From Chloroflexota bacterium (GTDB lineage: Bacteria > Chloroflexota > UBA11872): a stretch of DNA of 64,000 nt. The stretch covers positions 1 through 64,000 of the forward strand of contig JAJEDE010000025.1 in assembly GCA_022821645.1 (NCBI GenBank). The letters are read 5' to 3'. The first letter of the stretch is position 1, and each line of letters begins with the position of its first letter. A model generated the notes under the pieces. It saw only the letters and a list, made by a program, of their open reading frames with translations, ran no database searches and was not told where the DNA came from. Position numbers and translations under genes: made by a program. Shown piece after piece: positions 15,376-25,053 of this stretch.

Positions 15376-16152
15376 CTACCCGTCGGGCTTGGTCGCGACG
15401 ACGATCATGCGGTCGCTGTCGGGTTCGAAGGGATCGAGTCTGGCGTTGCCGTACAGCTCCGGATGGTTGAAACCCGCGGTTTGCAGTGCGGCCTTCAACT
15501 CGTCCTGTTCCAGGTAGCGCAGTCGGAACGTCGTGGTACGCCGATGCACCACGCCGTCGTCGCTGAGCCGGTCGTAGAAGTGCGCGGTGTCGATTGTCTG
15601 AGCAGCGGGGTCGATATCCCAGGACACGAAGTGCGTGATTTGGGAGTTATCCGGCCCGGCAAAGGTCGCCTGGTGCCGAACCACGCCGTCGCGCATCGCC
15701 AGCAGGTCGGGTGACGGATTGACGATGTCCACGGCCAGAAGGCCGCCGGGCCGAAGGACGTCGTGTGCGGCGCGCAGCGTGTCTCGAACGTCGGCCGCGG
15801 ATTGCAGGTGCAGTAGTCCGTCAAGCGCGCAGAACGCCAGGCCGAACTCGTCGTGACTGCTCGCGTGCCGCATATCGCCGCGTCTGAATCTCAGCGGCAA
15901 TCGGCGCGAGCCCAGATTGGTGCGCGCGATCGCCAGCATGGCCTCCGAGGTGTCGATGCCGTGGATTTCGTGCCCGGCCTCGGCCAGGGCGATGGCCACA
16001 CGGCCCGTGCCGCAGCCCAGTTCCAACACCGGACCGCCGGCGCGGGCCGCCAGCGCACGGTACAGGTCAAGGTCTTCGGTCCAACCGCGGTGCTCGGCCT
16101 CGTAAAGGTCGGCAATGCGCGCGTATGGATCGTCCAACCGGACGTCGCGCAC
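15376..16152 (-). CDS. Class I SAM-dependent methyltransferase
   Basis: A 258-residue Rossmann methyltransferase. Motif I 'VLELGCGTGRVAIALA' (about residue 45), the Asp at the end of strand 2 (HGIDTSEAML), 'FCALDGLLHL' and 'VLRPGGLLAVDIVNPSP' are all present. The GTG at 16152 shares its first base with the TAG of the upstream membrane-protein gene (TAGTG), so it is the last member of the overlapping operon holding the pseudo-Mre11/Rad50 genes. An upstream in-frame extension exists but would lie inside the previous gene. The acceptor substrate is unknown. Confidence 0.87.
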   Translation of the reverse strand: MRDVRLDDPYARIADLYEAEHRGWTEDLDLYRALAARAGGPVLELGCGTGRVAIALAEAGHEIHGIDTSEAMLAIARTNLGSRRLPLRFRRGDMRHASSHDEFGLAFCALDGLLHLQSAADVRDTLRAAHDVLRPGGLLAVDIVNPSPDLLAMRDGVVRHQATFAGPDNSQITHFVSWDIDPAAQTIDTAHFYDRLSDDGVVHRRTTTFRLRYLEQDELKAALQTAGFNHPELYGNARLDPFEPDSDRMIVVATKPDG

Positions 16153-16910
16153 TACCGGATGCGCAGCCTGCGCAGCACGAAGTCGGCCACGATCAGCGTG
16201 AGTATCACCAGGATCAGCAGACCGAAACTCGCCGTGCGATTCAGGGCGCTCACGGCCATGGCGGCCACGCCCACGGACACGAGAATGGCGTGGCGGGTGA
16301 GCGCCCACGTTGGGATCTTCTTCGGCGTGGCGTCACCGCCGCGGCGAAACCAGTACTCGAAAGCCCACGTGGCGAACAGGGCGCCAAACGACATGGTGAC
16401 CACCACCGCAAGCACGTTGAGCCCGTGCGCGGGATCGGTGAAGACAAGCTGGAAACCCAGCAGGATGGGGCAGGTCACGGTCCCCATGCCCATGGCCAGC
16501 CAGAGCCAGCGCGTGGCGTCAATCCGCTCGCGTGGAGCTGCCGCGGAAGCCTCGTAGCCGCGTGGCTCCGGGTCGCTGACATCGAGCGACAACTGCAATT
16601 GGCTGTCGGGATCGCCTTCGTTGCTGGCGGCGGCGGCGACGCCTGGGCGGCCGGGTCGAGGCGCTCGCTTCTCCGGCGGCGTTGTCGCAGGTTGCGATTC
16701 CCCGGCGACTTCGCCGCGACGAATCCGAACGGCCTGGTTTTCGTCTGTCTTGGTGCTGTCGATCGCTGTCGACTTGCCGCTGGGAATCCTGGTGTTGGAC
16801 GCCTTGCGGGTACTGCGTCGACTCAGCGTCTGTGGGCGACGCTCTCGGCGACGTATGGGTCTGGCTCCGGGTCGCCGCGACACGCGGCGGCCGGTCTCGG
16901 ATGCGAGCAC
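16152..16910 (-). CDS. Membrane protein with long charged N-terminus, unknown function
   Basis: A 252-residue protein without recognised family. Residues 1-135 are polar, rich in Arg, Pro, Ser and Glu, and probably disordered. About 137-250 hold four hydrophobic segments: 'LWLAMGMGTVTCPILLGF', 'VLAVVVTMSFGALFATWAF', 'HAILVSVGVAAMAVSAL' and 'SFGLLILVILTLIVADFVL', ending in a basic tail. GTG 16910 shares a base with the stop of the coiled-coil ATPase-like gene (TAGTG). A membrane partner for the YhaN-like protein, which itself has a membrane hairpin, is a reasonable inference. Confidence 0.75.
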   Translation of the reverse strand: MLASETGRRVSRRPGARPIRRRERRPQTLSRRSTRKASNTRIPSGKSTAIDSTKTDENQAVRIRRGEVAGESQPATTPPEKRAPRPGRPGVAAAASNEGDPDSQLQLSLDVSDPEPRGYEASAAAPRERIDATRWLWLAMGMGTVTCPILLGFQLVFTDPAHGLNVLAVVVTMSFGALFATWAFEYWFRRGGDATPKKIPTWALTRHAILVSVGVAAMAVSALNRTASFGLLILVILTLIVADFVLRRLRIR

Positions 16911-19897
16911 TAACCGGCCTCTCGAATGCCGCCGGCGACCGGCGCAACGTTCGACGCATGCCCGTTGGTCAGTGAAGTCACGCGGTCGAACCGGCCGCGG
17001 CCGGACACGAGCGGCTGTCCGGTGGCGATTATCTGCGGATAGCGTTGCGCCGCCTCGCCCAGGCTGGCTGCCGCCGTGAGGGCTTGCAGGATCGTGCCGT
17101 CGTGGTCCGTTGCCGATTGCTCCAGCCACATGAAAGCCGGCAAGTCCGTCGCGTCCAGCGGCGGACCGGCGACCGCCAACGATTGCGCCAATGCTCGTTC
17201 CACCTGCTCGCGGCTGCCGGCATCGAGATCGCGTGGCGCTCGCCAGGCGGCCGCCTGCGGATCCCACACGTCCACGCTCAGGTCCTCTCCGCAGCGAGCG
17301 TCCCAAAAGCGGCCGGCGCTGGCGGCCGGCAGGATGCTCCGCAACTCGTGCTCGATTGAGGCCGACAAGCTCTCCAGGGAGGCTTCCAGAGCATCGCGCA
17401 CGATCGTCTGGCCGATTTCGCGAACCCTGCGCGCGCGAAAGGCCTGATCCAGGCGAGCCTGGGCATCGACAGGGTCGATGTCCGTGCACTCCACGCCGGC
17501 CCGCAGTTCCAGTGTCTGCACCCGAGTCTCGGTCCGGCGCGCCGCCTCGCGCGCCTGCCGCAACGAGCGGCGCATCGCGTCGGCTTCGATCGGTTCCGCG
17601 TCCAGCTCCGGGATGGCGGCTCGCGCTTCAGCCGCCGTCGGATCGGCGTCGCAGTCAACCCCCAGCGCCCGCATGGCCGCCGCCAGATCGGTCGTGTGCC
17701 GTCTCGCCGCCGCCCGTACGGTTCGGCCGCGCAGGGCGGCGTCGCGGGCGACGCTGTGGGCTTGTTCCCCACCGACCTGTGCGGCGATGGCCGCAAGCTG
17801 CGCAATCTGCACGGCTCGCGCGCGATCATCGGCGCGTTCGGAGTCCGGTTCCTGTCGCTTGGATATTTCGGCGTCCAGCGAGTCGACTTCGTCCCTGGCG
17901 CGAGTCTCATCCCGGATTGCCATCTGCCGCTTGAGCTCCAGGTCCGCGCCGCCGCTCAATTTCTGCTTCAGGTCCTGCACCTTGCGCACGGTGCTGCGTC
18001 GCGTCTCTTCAACGTCTTCCCGGGACACTCCAATCTGCAGTTCGCCGGCCAGGCGTTCCGCCGCCCGCCGGGCGCTGGCCGCTCGCTCCAATTGCGTGCG
18101 TCGCTCAGCCGCTGCAGAGACTTGCTGCTGCTCCGGATCGCTGCGGTGCATGGATGCCACGCGTGCTTCCAGGCGCCGAACCTCGCGTGCGGCATCCTCG
18201 GCTGCCTGCGATGCGACGTCCGCTTCCCGGCGAAGCTCCGTCGAGTCGCTTCGAGTGTCCCCATCGGCCATCCGTCGTAGACGAGCCGTGGCACCGTCGC
18301 GGAGCACCACGGCCCTGGCCGCATTGGCGGGGACTTCCAGACCCAGCGCCTCAAGCTGGTTCTCGATGCGAGTTCGCGCCTTCTGTGCCTCCGCGCCTAC
18401 GAGCACCCGGTGCTCCGACTGCCGAAGTGCGCGTGCCACGGTGTCCAATTCGCGTTCCAGTTCGTCCACGCTTTGGGCGTTTCCACGTTCCGCCAGCGTC
18501 AGCCAGATGCCGGCCAGCGTGCCCACCATTCCCACGGTCAGGCCCAGGGGCGCGAGCGGAGCGAAGGCCAGCAGCCCAACCACGCCCGCGGCAAGGCCGG
18601 CTGCCGCTCCACCGGCCGCCAACCTTCGCCAGTTCTCCCGCAGCCGGACTTCGCGCTCGCGGGTGCGTACCGCGGACTCCAGGGCATTCAGTTGATCGTG
18701 GAGCGCCGCCGCTTCTGTCTCGGCCGTCGCAGCGTCGTCATCGTCGTTGGTCGCTTGGTCCAGCCACTTGCGCCAGAGGCGGTGCGCCGTCGGTAGCTGG
18801 GAGTCTTCGGTGATTCTGTCACTAAGCGTTCGCGCTCGCTCTGCCTGGGCGGCCAGACGTTCGGACTTGCTCCGGCTGGCGGCAAGTTCCTGGCGGGCGC
18901 GTTCCAGGACGGCCACGTCCTCGCCAACGGACGTGCTCGCGCGTCGTGCCTGCTCGGCCGCTGCAGCCGCGGCGTCGGCCCGGTCGTACGCGGCCAATCC
19001 GCGTTCCAGCGCCGTCAACCGCTGCTCGCTCGTCGTCAGTTCCGAGCGCAGGCCCCCAAGGTCGGCGACCTGCGTCTCAAACTCCATGCGCCGTGCCTGG
19101 GCGGCCTGCAGCCGCTCTATCGCAACGTCGCGATGGTCCAGCAGGTGTGCCAGCGCAAGGGCATGCTCAGCCCGTGCGACGTGGCGCTCAAACCCCTCCG
19201 CCAGCGACAGCATCTGCCGTCGCTCATCCTCGGCCTCGGCGACAAGCCGTTCCGCCTCCTCGAGCTGCTGAACCGCGCGTGCGGCCCGGTCGCGCTTGCG
19301 CACGAACTCAATCCGCTGGACCTCGCGGGCGGCTCCGCTATTAGCCTCCGCGGCCTTGGCCAGCGCGACGTGCAGCGACGCCAGCCGCTCAGCCTCCTCG
19401 AGATCCCGGCTCACCTCCACACTGGCGGCCAGCACATTCATGCGGCGCGAGCCAAGCCAGGCGCGAACGACATCGCGCAGCCGCCCGGCCAACGGCGCAA
19501 GGTCGCGCGGGGGCCAGACGAGAGCAGCCAATGCCTCGCTGTCCGCGCCCAGCAGGCGCTCGAGTTCGCGTTCGATGCGTTCGCTTCCCGAAACCGGGGC
19601 TAGGCCGGATGGCCCGCTTCGTGCCAGTGTCGTCGTGAGACGACCGTTCCGCTCGATTCGCCGCTCGATGGCATACGTCGCGCCACCGGCCACGATGGAC
19701 GCACCGACCAGCGCACCATCCCGGCGGCCGATCCCCGGCGTCACGTCGCCGAACAGCGCGCAGCGCAGCGCGGCGCTAAGCGTTGACGCCGTTGCCGGCG
19801 ACGCTTCGATAAGGTGTCGTCCACGCGGCAGGAAGGCGACATCCACGTCCTCGATCTCGCCCACGTGGTGGGCGATCAAGCGCTCAAGGAAGATCAC
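16910..19897 (-). CDS. YhaN/SbcC/Rad50-like coiled-coil protein with degenerate ATPase motifs and central membrane hairpin
   Basis: A 995-residue protein with the architecture of YhaN-type SMC relatives: an N-terminal head half (1-150), coiled coil (about 160-425), a hydrophobic hairpin (about 427-468), coiled coil (about 475-870) and a C-terminal head half. The head opens in the family style ('FLERLIAHHVGEIEDVDVAF...'), but where Walker A (GxxxxGKS/T) belongs, the sequence is LIEASPATASTL, with no Gly-Lys. The signature region reads LDAGSREQVERAL (from about 891), and Walker B is replaced by LPAFMWLEQ, so the Asp is lost. ATP hydrolysis by the usual mechanism is unlikely. GTG 19897 overlaps the stop of the SbcD-like gene (GTGA). 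Confidence 0.78.
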   Translation of the reverse strand: MIFLERLIAHHVGEIEDVDVAFLPRGRHLIEASPATASTLSAALRCALFGDVTPGIGRRDGALVGASIVAGGATYAIERRIERNGRLTTTLARSGPSGLAPVSGSERIERELERLLGADSEALAALVWPPRDLAPLAGRLRDVVRAWLGSRRMNVLAASVEVSRDLEEAERLASLHVALAKAAEANSGAAREVQRIEFVRKRDRAARAVQQLEEAERLVAEAEDERRQMLSLAEGFERHVARAEHALALAHLLDHRDVAIERLQAAQARRMEFETQVADLGGLRSELTTSEQRLTALERGLAAYDRADAAAAAAEQARRASTSVGEDVAVLERARQELAASRSKSERLAAQAERARTLSDRITEDSQLPTAHRLWRKWLDQATNDDDDAATAETEAAALHDQLNALESAVRTREREVRLRENWRRLAAGGAAAGLAAGVVGLLAFAPLAPLGLTVGMVGTLAGIWLTLAERGNAQSVDELERELDTVARALRQSEHRVLVGAEAQKARTRIENQLEALGLEVPANAARAVVLRDGATARLRRMADGDTRSDSTELRREADVASQAAEDAAREVRRLEARVASMHRSDPEQQQVSAAAERRTQLERAASARRAAERLAGELQIGVSREDVEETRRSTVRKVQDLKQKLSGGADLELKRQMAIRDETRARDEVDSLDAEISKRQEPDSERADDRARAVQIAQLAAIAAQVGGEQAHSVARDAALRGRTVRAAARRHTTDLAAAMRALGVDCDADPTAAEARAAIPELDAEPIEADAMRRSLRQAREAARRTETRVQTLELRAGVECTDIDPVDAQARLDQAFRARRVREIGQTIVRDALEASLESLSASIEHELRSILPAASAGRFWDARCGEDLSVDVWDPQAAAWRAPRDLDAGSREQVERALAQSLAVAGPPLDATDLPAFMWLEQSATDHDGTILQALTAAASLGEAAQRYPQIIATGQPLVSGRGRFDRVTSLTNGHASNVAPVAGGIREAG

Positions 19898-20991
19898 GAC
19901 ACGGCCTTCGTCGGTTCTCGACGCCGCGCGATCTCGGCCACATGAGCCCGAGCGGCGGCGACCAACGCCCGTTCGTCGTCGTCGGCGGCAGCTGCCAGGA
20001 GTCGTTCGCTGACGCGCCGTGCGTTGACCAGGAAAGATGAGCGAGCCGTGGCGCTGGCGTGTTGCGGAGCGTCGGCAACCCTCAATTCATCAATGCCAAA
20101 ACGCAACAGCGTGCCCGCGGCGGCGGCCTGATCCACCAGGCGGGGCGGATCCAGGTCGTGCCAGGCGGCACGCGACATCTGTCCGTGCAGCTCGACATCG
20201 AGGATCGCGGCCGTCCCCAGTTCCGACGCGACCAGGCTTTCCACCTCGCCGGCCGACCGCGGCGAATCGAACGAAAGACGCGCCGGCCGCAGAGTTTCGG
20301 TCGGCAGGAACGACGGAGTCGCCCCCACGGCCGCATCGATATCCAGGATCACAAAGCCGGGCTCCGCGCGTCGTTCCAGCGAGGGGCCCGCCCATCCGGT
20401 TGTGACGACGGGAACATCGTCCAGGCGCTCCCACGCGGAAGCACCGGCACGCGTATCGACGACCAGGTCGGCGGAGCCGGCCGGCAAAGGGGATCCGGCG
20501 AGTTCACCCTCTCCCGTAAAGATCTCGATCATCAAATCAGCGGCGTCCCCATCGGCCATGGCGCTGCCGGTTACCAGGCCAACCTGGAGGTTGGCGAGCG
20601 GCACGACCACAGACCCGGGAGCTTGGGCAGGCAGCAACGCGTCGACGAGACCGACTTCAGCCAGAAAATCCGTACCGTCCGAGACAGGACCCGGCGGTTC
20701 GCCAGTCGCTATGAGCGTCATCCCAGCGCGGCGCGCCAATCCGAGTGGGGCCATCGCGGCCCGCACGTTATCGAGTGATGGCGGCGACTCGGCAAACAGG
20801 CCGGGCCCGCAGACGAACCCCTGGCATCCCGCCCGCGCCGACTGCTCAAGGACCTCGGCAAAGGCTCGGTGCGTGAGCGTACTGAAGAGGTCCCGTTGAA
20901 CGGACGACAGCGCTGCCGGGCGCGCGCCGAGTTGAAATCCCGCGGCTATGGCGAGACGGGCGCGACTCTCACGAGACCGGACGATACGCAC
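19894..20991 (-). CDS. SbcD/Mre11/YhaO-like protein lacking metallophosphoesterase residues
   Basis: A 365-residue protein whose strand/helix order follows the SbcD/YhaO nuclease, but every metal-binding motif is altered. Motif I (D-x-H) is AGFQLGA (17-23), followed by the usual R-D helix (VQRDLF). GDxxD is CGPGLFAE (61-68), GNH(D/E) is TGEPPG (96-101), the single-His strand is IEIFTGEG (about 155-162), and GHxH is DTRAGAS (179-185). The following 'VPVVTTGWAGPSLERRAEPGFVILDID' (split: VPVVTTGWAG, then PSLERRAEPG, then FVILDID) matches the family's post-GHxH strand. A capping domain fills the rest. GTG 20991 is the assumed start, with AAGGA 12 nt upstream. It pairs with the YhaN-like gene it overlaps. 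Confidence 0.75.
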   Translation of the reverse strand: MRIVRSRESRARLAIAAGFQLGARPAALSSVQRDLFSTLTHRAFAEVLEQSARAGCQGFVCGPGLFAESPPSLDNVRAAMAPLGLARRAGMTLIATGEPPGPVSDGTDFLAEVGLVDALLPAQAPGSVVVPLANLQVGLVTGSAMADGDAADLMIEIFTGEGELAGSPLPAGSADLVVDTRAGASAWERLDDVPVVTTGWAGPSLERRAEPGFVILDIDAAVGATPSFLPTETLRPARLSFDSPRSAGEVESLVASELGTAAILDVELHGQMSRAAWHDLDPPRLVDQAAAAGTLLRFGIDELRVADAPQHASATARSSFLVNARRVSERLLAAAADDDERALVAAARAHVAEIARRREPTKAVS

Positions 20992-21124: not shown

Positions 21125-21682
21125 CTACGCCATTGCGAAGAGCGGCGGCGGGCGTTTGCCGACCCGTCGCGCCGGTCCCGGCAGGCTGCGCGGACCCCTT
21201 GATTCCAGCCGGATGCCGCATCCGTCATGCACGTACCGGCGGGACCCGTCTTCAATAACCAGGGTGTGATCGCGCATCCGCCGATGCAGGTCTCGCAGGA
21301 CCAGGTCAACGACCGGGAACGTGAACCTCCAGGTGGCTACCAGCTCGTGCGGAACGCGCCCGGGCTGGAATCGAAGTCCGGTGCGCGCCGCGAATACCTC
21401 GCGGTGCACTTGATGGCCCCAACTGACGAAAAGCCGGGCCTCGCGTGTTCGGCGGCCCAGCACGTGCGAGGCGCCGTGTCGCAACGTCTGGCGGGCCACC
21501 TGCCGAATCACCTCGTCCCGCCCGGCGGCCGGGTGCCGAAGGGCGTAGCGGTACAAACGGCCAAGCCTGGCCATCGCCATTCGGCTGCCGGTTGTGGTAG
21601 CTCGGCCGGCCTCGGCCGTGGCGTGACCGCTGGCTGCCTCAAGGCGCAGCAGGTCGCCGAACTGATCGGGCAGTCGCGACAT
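21125..21682 (-). CDS. Conserved-looking basic protein of unknown function
   Basis: A 185-residue, Arg-rich protein that I do not recognise. It has an excellent ribosome site (AAAGGAG, 7 nt before ATG 21682) and so is very likely expressed. Visible parts: a helical N-terminal half with 'RLYRYALRHPAAGRDEVIRQVARQ', a middle segment 'FVSWGHQVHREVFAAR', and 'DGSRRYVHDGCGIRLE', which looks like a beta-hairpin. It lies between dinB (63 nt upstream) and the pseudo-Mre11 gene (133 nt downstream) on the same strand and may link them in one transcript. Confidence 0.6.
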   Translation of the reverse strand: MSRLPDQFGDLLRLEAASGHATAEAGRATTTGSRMAMARLGRLYRYALRHPAAGRDEVIRQVARQTLRHGASHVLGRRTREARLFVSWGHQVHREVFAARTGLRFQPGRVPHELVATWRFTFPVVDLVLRDLHRRMRDHTLVIEDGSRRYVHDGCGIRLESRGPRSLPGPARRVGKRPPPLFAMA

Positions 21683-21745: not shown

Positions 21746-22999
21746 TCATCCCAGGACATCCTCACGCCACGCGTAACGCTCGCGGTCCATGCGGGCGCTC
21801 GATCCCAGCAGTGCGCCATGCGTAATCACCGCATCGCCAAAGCGCGCGCGAACTTCGTCCATGGCGACTTCAAGTGGTCGGGAGTCTCGCCTGGTCTTTG
21901 AAATAAGCGAAAGCTGTCGCGCCGAGGCTGGCTCAATGCCCGTCACGTGAACCCCAACCAATCTGAACACGTCCTGGCCACCCGCTTCCCGCCCGAGCAG
22001 GTCCCGGATGGCGCCGACGATCGCTCGAGTCTGGTCGGTTGGCTTGGGCAGCGTGACCTGCCGCGTGATCGTTCGGAAGTCGGCGTAACGCAGCTTGAGG
22101 ACTACGGTTCGCCCTATCAGGCGCTTGGCACGCAGGCGCCGCGCCACGTGATCGGCGAGCTGGCGCAGATAGCGCAGGACCAGGTCCCTATCGCCGGTGT
22201 CGTGGCTGAAGGTCACCTCGTGGCCCACGGACTTGGCCGTTCGCTCGCTCTCGACATCGCGGGGATCGATTCCGCGCGCGAGCGTCGTCGCTTTACGCAG
22301 CTCACGCATCCGTTCCGGGTCGTGGCGCGACAGGTCGCCGATGGTGCGAATGCCGCGAGCGGCCAGGCGGGTCTCGCTCTTCGGACCGATGCCCCAGATC
22401 ATTCGTACCGGCAGCGGGTCCAGGAAGTCCTGCTCGGAGCCGGGCCGCACAATGCGCCGCCCGTCGGGCTTGGCCAGCGTCGAGGCGATCTTTGCGACTG
22501 ACTTGCTGGTCGCGATGCCCACGGAAACCGGCAGGTCAACCGCGCTTCGTACGGCGTCCCGCACGTGGTCGGCAGTCTCGTGCGGCGTGCCGTATCGTCG
22601 CTCGCAGCCCGTGACGTCCAGAAACGCTTCGTCCAACGACAGCGGCTCAACCAGCGGCGTATACGTCCGAAAGACCCGCATGACTTCCGCGGACACGTCG
22701 GAATACAGCCGCATGCGTCCCGACACGAATTCCGCGTGCGGACAGAGGCGGGCGGCCTGGCGCAGCGGCATCGCCGACCTGACGCCGTAGGCCCGCGCCT
22801 CGTAGGAGGCCGCCGCGACGACGCCGCGCGCATCCCGCGGACCGCCCACGATCACGGGGCGACCTTTCAATTTCGGTCGTTCCCGCTGCTCGACAGACGC
22901 ATAGAAGGCGTCCATATCCGCGTGCATGATGACCCGCCGCTCTTGCCACTCGGCGGGCAGACGGCCGTGGGGCCGGAATTCGGGGCCTGTCGCGTCCAT
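21746..22999 (-). CDS. dinB: DNA polymerase IV (Y-family translesion polymerase)
   Basis: A 417-residue Y-family polymerase. The catalytic 'HADMDAFYASVEQRE' (first Asp pair) is near residue 26, 'SYEARAYGVRSAMP' follows, and the second acidic motif is 'PLSLDEAFLDVTG' (about 120). The thumb helix-hairpin-helix 'MIWGIGPKSETRLAARGI' and little-finger domain complete it. It copies damaged DNA with low fidelity. Its start is ATG 22999. A GTTC-N7-GTTC direct repeat 15-29 nt upstream of the start suggests LexA control. lexA itself is nearby on the same strand. Confidence 0.95.
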   Translation of the reverse strand: MDATGPEFRPHGRLPAEWQERRVIMHADMDAFYASVEQRERPKLKGRPVIVGGPRDARGVVAAASYEARAYGVRSAMPLRQAARLCPHAEFVSGRMRLYSDVSAEVMRVFRTYTPLVEPLSLDEAFLDVTGCERRYGTPHETADHVRDAVRSAVDLPVSVGIATSKSVAKIASTLAKPDGRRIVRPGSEQDFLDPLPVRMIWGIGPKSETRLAARGIRTIGDLSRHDPERMRELRKATTLARGIDPRDVESERTAKSVGHEVTFSHDTGDRDLVLRYLRQLADHVARRLRAKRLIGRTVVLKLRYADFRTITRQVTLPKPTDQTRAIVGAIRDLLGREAGGQDVFRLVGVHVTGIEPASARQLSLISKTRRDSRPLEVAMDEVRARFGDAVITHGALLGSSARMDRERYAWREDVLG

Positions 23000-23013
23000 G
23001 CGCTGAGTGTACC

Positions 23014-23028
23014 GAACAAATAACGAAC
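23014..23028 (-). promoter_or_regulatory. Candidate SOS/LexA box upstream of dinB
   Basis: On the minus strand this reads GTTCGTTATTTGTTC, the GTTC-N7-GTTC direct repeat known for LexA boxes of Alphaproteobacteria. A matching element, GTTCGTTTATTGTCC, stands before lexA. Both are followed by CGG or CGGT. A third GAAC at 23040-23043 does not keep the spacing. Confidence 0.6.
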
Positions 23029-23140
23029 GTACAAATTACGAACATGCGCTCTGCCGCGGGAGCTTCGATGACAGATGGTCGTCTGCCGGACAGTGCGATC
23101 CGGCGAATCCGACGCTCACGCCTCGTCCGCGTGGTGATGG

Positions 23141-23848
23141 CTAAAGGATGCTGCGCGCCTGCGCCAATTCCTGCGTGCCCAGTTCACCGTCCGCGTGTTC
23201 CAGGACGCGCCGGAAGGCCGCTTGTGCCTTCGCGGAGTCACCGGCCGTCTGATGCGCCCGCGCCAGGGCGAAATCCCAGCGAACCGAGGCTTGGTCCGGC
23301 CGGCTGGCTTCCAGGCGGGCCAGGGCGCGCCGCGCTGCCTGCGGCGACGGTTGAACCGCGAGTTCCGCCAGCACGCGATCGGCCGTGACGGCGGCCGTCG
23401 GGTTCAGCCGCTGCGCGTGGTTCAGTGCGTCGAGCGCGCCTGGTGCGTCGCCGGCTTTCAGTCGCGCCCGGCCCAGCGCCTGCCACACCGCCCCGCCATC
23501 GGCGCCATGCTCCACGGCCGCTTCCAGGCAGCGCGCGGCCGCGCCATGGTGGCCGGCGGCGTCCAGCGCGGCCGCCACGTTGCGATAGAGCCGCGGCCGT
23601 AGATCGTCATTGCCCAATTCGCCGCTTGCCGTGTCCAGCGCCAGGTCAAAAGCCTCGCGCGCCGCCGAGGTATTGCCTTCGGCGGCGTAGCGCACCCCCA
23701 GGCTGGCCAGATGTAACGCCGACAGGCGAACTTCAGGGCTTGGTGCGGCGGCGTCCACGGCCAGCAGGGCGCACTGCGCGGCGGCATCCACGGCGCCTGC
23801 CGCTACCAGGTCTGCTATGTCGTCGCGGCGATCCTGGATTTCCGCCAC
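23141..23848 (-). CDS. TPR-repeat protein
   Basis: A 235-residue helical protein built of tetratricopeptide-like repeats, for example 'LYRNVAAALDAAGHHGAAARCLEAAV', 'VWQALGRARLKAGDAPGALDALNHA' and 'FALARAHQTAGDSAKAQAAFRRVL' (each given in short sections of one repeat: about 34 residues per unit). TPRs mediate protein contacts; no catalytic domain is present. GTG 23848 lies 13 nt after the lexA stop, so the gene is probably co-transcribed with lexA and would be part of the SOS response if that promoter is LexA-controlled. Confidence 0.75.
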   Translation of the reverse strand: MAEIQDRRDDIADLVAAGAVDAAAQCALLAVDAAAPSPEVRLSALHLASLGVRYAAEGNTSAAREAFDLALDTASGELGNDDLRPRLYRNVAAALDAAGHHGAAARCLEAAVEHGADGGAVWQALGRARLKAGDAPGALDALNHAQRLNPTAAVTADRVLAELAVQPSPQAARRALARLEASRPDQASVRWDFALARAHQTAGDSAKAQAAFRRVLEHADGELGTQELAQARSIL

Positions 23849-23861
23849 GCGCGTGTCCGCG

Positions 23862-24461
23862 TCAGAGCCGCCGCATGATCGAGGTCACCCGCCCGCGAAT
23901 CCGCACATCGTCGGCGTAGATCGGCGCCATATCGGCATTTGCCGGTTGTAGGCGGGCCCGGTCCGCCTCGCGGAAAATCCGCTTGAGCGTTACCGAACCG
24001 TCGTCCAGCATGGCCACGCCAATCTCACCGTCCCGAATGGTCTCTACCGGATCCACGATCACGATGTCGCCATCGCAGATGTGGTCGTCGATCATGCTGT
24101 CCCCGCGCACGCGGAGCGCATAGGCCGTGCCGTCGGGCGACAGGTCCGCCGTAACGGCAATCGTGTCCAGTCGCTCTTCGTAGGCGTCGATCGGGGCGCC
24201 GGCGGCGATTTCGCCCACGATCAGGACATTCACCACCCCGCCCGGCATCCCTCCGCTCAGGATTTCGATTCCGTGCGACTGGCCCGATCGCCGGATATAC
24301 CCCTTGCGCTCCAGCACCTCCAGGTGCTGCTGAACCGTGGCCGGCGCCAGGCCCAGCACGGCGCCTATTTCCCGCACGCTGGGCGTATACCCCTCGTCCT
24401 GCAGGAACCGCTCAATAGTCTGCAACACACGATGCTGCCGTTGTGTCAGTGGATCGCCCAC
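23862..24461 (-). CDS. lexA: LexA repressor
   Basis: A 199-residue SOS repressor. The N-terminal winged helix-turn-helix is clear ('YTPSVREIGAVLGLAPATVQ', then QHLEVLERKGYIRR). The autocleavage Ala-Gly lies in GEIAAGAP. The catalytic Ser is in VRGDSMID and the Lys in GSVTLKRIF. GTG 24461 is chosen because GAAGGA lies 9 nt upstream and the length becomes the normal 200; a GTG at 24551 would add an unusual Arg/Pro-rich tail. A GTTC-N7-GTCC element about 97 nt upstream suggests autoregulation. Confidence 0.95.
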   Translation of the reverse strand: MGDPLTQRQHRVLQTIERFLQDEGYTPSVREIGAVLGLAPATVQQHLEVLERKGYIRRSGQSHGIEILSGGMPGGVVNVLIVGEIAAGAPIDAYEERLDTIAVTADLSPDGTAYALRVRGDSMIDDHICDGDIVIVDPVETIRDGEIGVAMLDDGSVTLKRIFREADRARLQPANADMAPIYADDVRIRGRVTSIMRRL

Positions 24462-24557
24462 CGCAAGCCGTCCTTCAGCGCGTCCCGGTGCTCGCCTTGG
24501 GCGCGGCTCGTCGCCGTGTCCAGGGCCCGAACTCTTGAGATGCAATGTCACGCTACC

Positions 24558-24572
24558 GGACAATAAACGAAC
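24558..24572 (-). promoter_or_regulatory. Candidate SOS/LexA box upstream of lexA
   Basis: On the minus strand this reads GTTCGTTTATTGTCC, matching the dinB element (GTTCGTTATTTGTTC) at 12 of 15 positions. The repeat spacing is 7 nt in both. It lies about 97 nt before the chosen lexA start, consistent with an operator near the promoter. Confidence 0.55.
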
Positions 24573-24616
24573 GGTCAAGTCGGAGTGCCGCCGTGCTCGA
24601 GTAAGGATCGCCTCGC

Positions 24617-24994
24617 TTAGGCCGCGTCGATCCGAATCGCCGTCCCCGTGCGAACCCGCCGCAACGCGTCGACCGGCGGATCGCAGACACGTCCCACCAC
24701 GTTCACCGGGCTGGCCGCCCGAACCTCGTTCCCCTGGCTGGCCGGTGTGCGGCCGAAGAACACGCAAAAGGCCAACCCCGGCGGCCAATAGGCCAGATCG
24801 CCGACCTCCACCACGTCCGAAGCGTCCGGTTCCTGCTCGGCCTGCACGCCGATGTCGAAGTAATACTCGTGGCCCCAGGTGTTCACCGTTCGGGCGATCG
24901 GCAGCGCGTCCCAGATGGCGTCGGCCGTCGGCGTATCGAATAACTCGCCGTTCATTTCGATGTCGCCAACGGTGATTGTGATCGGTCGAGGCAT
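24617..24994 (-). CDS. Cyclophilin-like fold protein (DUF369/PF04126 type)
   Basis: A 125-residue protein of the small cyclophilin-like family: 'MNGELFDTPTADAIWDALP' near the start, 'TWGHEYYFDIG' in the middle, then 'VGDLAYWPPGLAFCVFFGRTP' (two strands of the barrel). Length fits the family. Structural relatives share the cyclophilin barrel but lack the usual proline-isomerase active site, and their function is unknown. It stands alone between lexA and the glucoamylase gene. Confidence 0.8.
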   Translation of the reverse strand: MPRPITITVGDIEMNGELFDTPTADAIWDALPIARTVNTWGHEYYFDIGVQAEQEPDASDVVEVGDLAYWPPGLAFCVFFGRTPASQGNEVRAASPVNVVGRVCDPPVDALRRVRTGTAIRIDAA

Positions 24995-25053
24995 GAGGGG
25001 CTTGGTTGGAGAATGGGCAGGATGACCTTAGCAGTCGCACCGCCTGGCGGTGG

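Follow-up and report, generated by a model that had tools for sequence, protein, structure and literature searches.

How Mre11-Rad50 complexes work is explained by their nuclease action and by movements that ATP drives. The known Mre11-Rad50 systems require ATP to function, according to the part of the source used here (PMC4494100), and against this background a version without a P-loop is notable. For the nuclease half there is a precedent in eukaryotic DNA polymerase B-subunits, whose calcineurin-like domain is described, in the portion of PMC4996933 that we draw on, as having been inactivated and turned into a scaffold. Here we report a gene pair of the Mre11-Rad50 type that has lost the catalytic motifs of both subunits, from a Chloroflexota bacterium (contig JAJEDE010000025.1, positions 1 to 64,000; this whole stretch of 64,000 nucleotides is referred to as the window). 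A literature search confined to open-licence PubMed Central found no paper on such a pair. The genes of the locus are listed in Table 1; the stop codon of the small gene and the start codon of the large gene overlap as GTGA and both frames are open, as the preliminary description of this DNA had stated. Neither protein had a significant match in Pfam or NCBIfam.

Table 1. Features of the degenerate pair and its two neighbouring genes, in positions of the window.
Feature	Position	Strand	Remarks
Small subunit, Mre11/SbcD-like phosphoesterase fold, metal-binding motifs all lost	19894..20991	(-)	365 aa
Large subunit, long coiled coil with Rad50-like head lobes at either end	16910..19897	(-)	995 aa; Walker A, signature and Walker B lost
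Former Walker A site of the large subunit, residues about 31-45, no Gly-Lys	19762..19806	(-)	computed from residue numbers
Mid-coil hydrophobic hairpin-like stretch of the large subunit, residues about 425-470	18488..18625	(-)	computed from residue numbers
Third gene, small membrane protein with 3 or 4 hydrophobic segments near the C-terminus	16152..16910	(-)	conserved over about 16155-16590; start codon uncertain
Fourth gene, class I SAM-dependent methyltransferase	15376..16308	(-)	neighbour of the membrane protein gene

Homology could be established without recourse to the motifs, since profiles made from degenerate sequences only matched intact Mre11-Rad50-like pairs in hhalign, at a probability of 99.4% (E 5.7e-22, 347 columns) for the small protein and of 99.8% (E 2.3e-29, 932 columns) for the large one, each E-value coming from one comparison and the coiled coil being able to inflate the score of the large protein. 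Crossed controls of small against large gave probabilities of 0.1% and 0.2% (E 0.49 and 0.35). The profiles of the window's family also matched those of the sister family in the same order (E 9.8e-22, small; 1.8e-33, large), whose small-protein profile in turn matched the intact one at E 6.4e-39, and an alignment of the head regions of the large profiles placed the former P-loop on the intact P-loop. Searched against PDB sequences, the degenerate-only profiles had Mre11 (E 3e-5; 5/5 matches Mre11) and Rad50 (E 5.4e-4) as their respective best matches, in agreement with the descent proposed in the preliminary description. In addition, structural models gave the small protein (pLDDT 84.3, pTM 0.76) the Mre11-related phosphoesterase fold, with Mre11 in the best 50 of 136 Foldseek matches at E <= 0.001 (top E 4.3e-12), and the large protein (pLDDT 80.8, pTM 0.42) the architecture typical of Rad50/SbcC, a long coiled coil connecting two head lobes, with helices across most of residues 164-910 and structural matches to SMC or Rad50 proteins. 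The folds are thus related to those of the active complexes, although these models are not independent of the homology claim because their alignments included intact relatives. As such, the profile comparisons show, at the level of sequence, that the pair descends from a pair of the Mre11-Rad50 type.

Every motif string quoted in the preliminary description was found to sit in the aligned column of the true motif. In the small protein, AAGFQL occupies the column of TADNHL, GPGLFA that of CGDLFD, GEPPG that of GGNHD and TRAGAS that of GHVHAR; in the large protein, ASPATA-ST stands in place of GRNEAGKST (Walker A), LDAGSREQ in place of FSGGTQDQ (signature) and FMWLEQ in place of FLFLDEP (Walker B). 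The same motifs are missing from the close homologues. The Mre11/SbcD metal-binding motifs D-x-H, GDxxD, GNHD and GHxH are gone from the family: none of 18 family members has an Asp left in motif I or motif II, the motif III His or the final His of motif V, and the only remnant is the motif I His, which persists in 4/18 (G010, whose small gene is split over two contigs, is left out of this count, and both of its pieces also lack the motifs). The Rad50/SbcC set of Walker A, signature, Walker B and H-loop is likewise missing from the large protein, with the Walker A Lys and the SGG signature each in 0/19 family members, and a CxxC zinc hook at the coil apex was found in none of the 19.

The loss is graded when the aligned sequences are followed from outside the order through the sister family to the window's family. 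Outside the order, all 22 aligned small proteins have kept D-N-H of motif I, GD-x-F-D of motif II, H-D of motif III (its N in 17), the motif IV His and the last His of motif V (complete GHxH in 15), and all 25 aligned large proteins have kept the P-loop and the Walker B DE, with the SGG signature in 23 (in this alignment G023 lacks its N-terminal part, and G024, whose N-terminus is cut, was omitted). The large protein of G024 has an intact signature and Walker B. The sister family, in five genomes, is intermediate, with broken nuclease motifs, no signature, and the Walker A Lys and Walker B Asp kept. Its four small proteins have lost most motif residues and each has remnants: G022 shows GDLF, for example, G019 the motif I Asp and G020 the last His of motif V, and three of the four keep the motif IV His. 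Among its large proteins the Walker A Lys is present in 4/4 that are readable there, the Walker B Asp in 5/5 (four with DD and one with DE), and none of the five has the signature. A tree of the head region, in which the family, the sister family and the intact set each lie on one side of a branch (SH-aLRT 100, 95 and 94), needs a single change between intact and not intact; it contains long branches, and it does not settle whether the family and the sister family form one clade. Judged from these alignments, catalytic motif loss is complete in the window's family and partial in its sister family.

The pair was found in 19/19 genomes of the window's family. Searches of 61 related genomes with the single proteins matched the large one in 22 and the small one in 21, and the large-protein profile matched 24/24 genomes of the order and 35/41 of the class, with no match in the six genomes of family f4. 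The pair is thus not a product of chance, as a relative of the large protein occurs throughout the order; long frames arising by chance in a G+C-rich genome were ruled out by dN/dS and conservation. The small-protein profile matched 22/24 genomes of the order, missing G020 and G021, where a small gene nevertheless adjoins the large one, and in G023, where the contig of the locus ends inside the large gene, its matches lie away from the locus. An adjacent small gene is present in 23/24 genomes of the order when the split gene of G010 is counted, and across genomes the two subunits are adjacent and inherited together. In a phylum sample, 58/251 genomes matched a mixed large-protein profile at E <= 1e-15; 34 of the matched genomes lie outside the class, and the regions of 17 (16 new and G052) were examined. 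No small gene was found in the stretches taken from G249, G049, G154 and G024.

The same genome also holds an intact SbcD-SbcC-like pair at a separate locus (L123) and an intact pair, with nuclease and P-loop motifs present, which we take to be of the YhaO-YhaN type (L122, on contig C23 of this genome, G000). The pair of the window is therefore a third one, and intact members of this third pair occur across the phylum (L114-L119, L121, L167-L184). Thus, the kinship with SbcD/YhaO and YhaN/SbcC named in the preliminary description holds as far as the Mre11-Rad50 type is concerned, but a degenerate copy of YhaNO or SbcCD was ruled out, with intact loci of both elsewhere and profiles nearer the third pair. 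The SbcC-like protein of the genome (L123:2772-5645) itself has no CxxC zinc hook motif. Since pseudoenzymes often regulate active relatives, and both intact pairs are available in the same genome, the dead pair or one of its subunits might join or compete with the SbcCD-like or YhaNO-like complex and tune it. We regard this as unlikely, given that the dead pair shares very little sequence identity with the active paralogues (16% for YhaO) and retains its own linked partner and its own neighbour genes throughout the order. PADLOC models gave no match to the large protein and a marginal one to the small protein (E 0.0071), and on this result a known anti-phage defence system was rejected for the pair of the window. 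Intact relatives match LmuB and other SMC-like PADLOC models, and the half-intact and intact large proteins of L111 and L117, respectively, match the models of the defence proteins LmuB (Lamassu) and mad3; for this reason, the third pair found across the phylum may merit testing in defence or repair.

The hydrophobic stretch that had been proposed as a membrane hairpin in the large subunit is present in the coil of 19/19 family members, with two peaks in 10 and one in 9, and it is the part of the structural model with the lowest confidence (pLDDT about 45-52). It occurs at a similar place of the coil in 19/25 intact members and in 2/5 large proteins of the sister family, and its absence from the other three means that it is not needed throughout the order. 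In family f3, the large proteins of G026, G028, G032, G038 and G040 have no such stretch and that of G030 has a weak one elsewhere in the protein; G030 is also the only one of 30 relatives of the large protein with a CxxC. A small multi-TM gene, for which no Pfam family was matched, lies 3' of the pair in 19/19 family genomes and in G020, G021 and G023 (the profile's seeds, the window, G003, G020 and G021, being among these), and in G019 its place is taken by a similar frame that the profile did not match. Outside the order it was not found in the stretches examined, most of which had short flanks. Beyond it follows the methyltransferase gene, whose true start is probably further downstream because its frame overlaps the membrane protein gene. 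On the other side of the pair, the upstream region (21746-25040) carries genes for a Y-family DNA polymerase and for a LexA-like protein with a long N-terminal extension, and the conserved gene between polymerase and pair (21125-21682; 58% identity in L125) has no Pfam match.

The methyltransferase gene is adjacent in the four family loci inspected (the window, L124, L125 and L126), and the sister-family loci L109, L111 and L113 likewise have the pair followed by membrane protein and methyltransferase. This arrangement raises the idea that the pair gained another activity, independent of the old sites, for example together with the methyltransferase and the membrane protein. However, adjacency alone is no proof of joint function, Pfam and NCBIfam revealed neither a new conserved motif nor a new domain in the pair, and L112 (G019, sister family) has kept the pair and the aminotransferase gene that lies further on in L109, L111 and L112, as in the window, while the methyltransferase gene between them is missing; we consider such a gain quite improbable. 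The sister-family intermediates sit at the conserved locus in 4/5 genomes, the fifth locus (L110) being ended by a contig edge.

Selection on the pair is purifying, as its median dN/dS (Nei-Gojobori) is 0.23-0.29: for the large gene 0.234 (0.191-0.460) in genus g1 and 0.232 (0.142-0.278) in g2, for the small gene 0.287 (0.209-0.518) and 0.242 (0.184-0.385), from 49/78 (large) and 29/66 (small) sequence pairs in g1 and 15/15 for both in g2, pairs with dS outside 0.05-1 being left out. The intact YhaNO-like control of the genome gave 0.183 for the YhaN-like and 0.133 for the YhaO-like gene (24/44 and 34/45 pairs, those with too little overlap also left out). The substitution pattern therefore indicates that selection maintains the pair, if somewhat less stringently than its active YhaNO-like paralogue, and the earlier view that this is not a dead gene in decay stands, with ratios well below 1. 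The former Walker A columns vary more than the whole protein (mean pairwise identity within genus 0.51 against 0.66), whereas variation is lower in the core strand of the former Walker B (0.87) and in the hydrophobic stretch (0.74). A duplicated pair in slow neutral decay would agree with the stepwise loss of motifs, with dN/dS above the control and with the ratio of 0.67 in the close genome pair G010/G012, which is based on few changes (16.5 synonymous, 29.5 nonsynonymous), but in view of the low medians, of the 0.50-0.60 of substitutions taken by third codon positions and of a large frame present without internal stop in all 19 family genomes, this explanation was already disfavoured and is highly improbable; pseudogene decay was rejected. 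ATPase activity persisting by way of unusual residues, such as the Walker B Asp retained in 6/19 large proteins (genus g2) and followed by Glu in none, is hardly credible, since all 19 have lost the H-loop His and the signature along with Lys and Gly of the P-loop.

Taken together, we propose that a Mre11-Rad50-like pair, catalytic elsewhere in Chloroflexota, probably became a non-catalytic, membrane-anchored scaffold within one order. The C-terminal helices of the Mre11-like protein and the base of the Rad50-like coil might still join both proteins, the coil might reach the membrane via the hydrophobic hairpin and the small TM protein, and the dead heads, neither cutting nor being opened by ATP, could hold on to DNA or to a protein partner, so that the pair may act as a tether or scaffold. 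Here we speculate, tentatively, that the conversion was stepwise, with the nuclease and signature lost first and the P-loop later, into a passive tether of DNA or protein to the membrane that gained a small TM protein as its new partner; a wholly de-catalysed Mre11-Rad50 kept as a core scaffold bound to the membrane is a possibility that we would not yet favour over its negation. A conserved pair without nuclease or ATP site is a natural experiment on the capacities of the bare architecture, and one phylum offers the pair in intact, half-lost and fully lost form, which opens the order of loss to study.

In comparison with known systems, the pair resembles Mre11-Rad50 and SbcD-SbcC in the order of its genes, in the phosphoesterase fold and in a coiled coil flanked by Rad50 head lobes, and differs from them in the missing metal, P-loop, signature and H-loop residues, in the hydrophobic stretch and in the lack of a CxxC hook. 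Like YhaO-YhaN, it has the small gene before the large one and a large protein whose coil contains a hydrophobic stretch, whereas the motifs of that pair are intact, its locus is another one and the pair of the window is nearer the intact third Chloroflexota pairs. The latter match both proteins in full-length profiles and, in most members, carry the hydrophobic stretch at a similar place, yet they have intact catalytic motifs, and no multi-TM gene was found with them in the stretches examined. The B-subunits of Pol alpha and delta have no Rad50-like partner, possess a different domain set and are not related as a family, and are nevertheless alike in combining a Mre11-related phosphoesterase fold and inactivated nuclease motifs with a scaffold role, as proposed in the part of PMC4996933 considered here.
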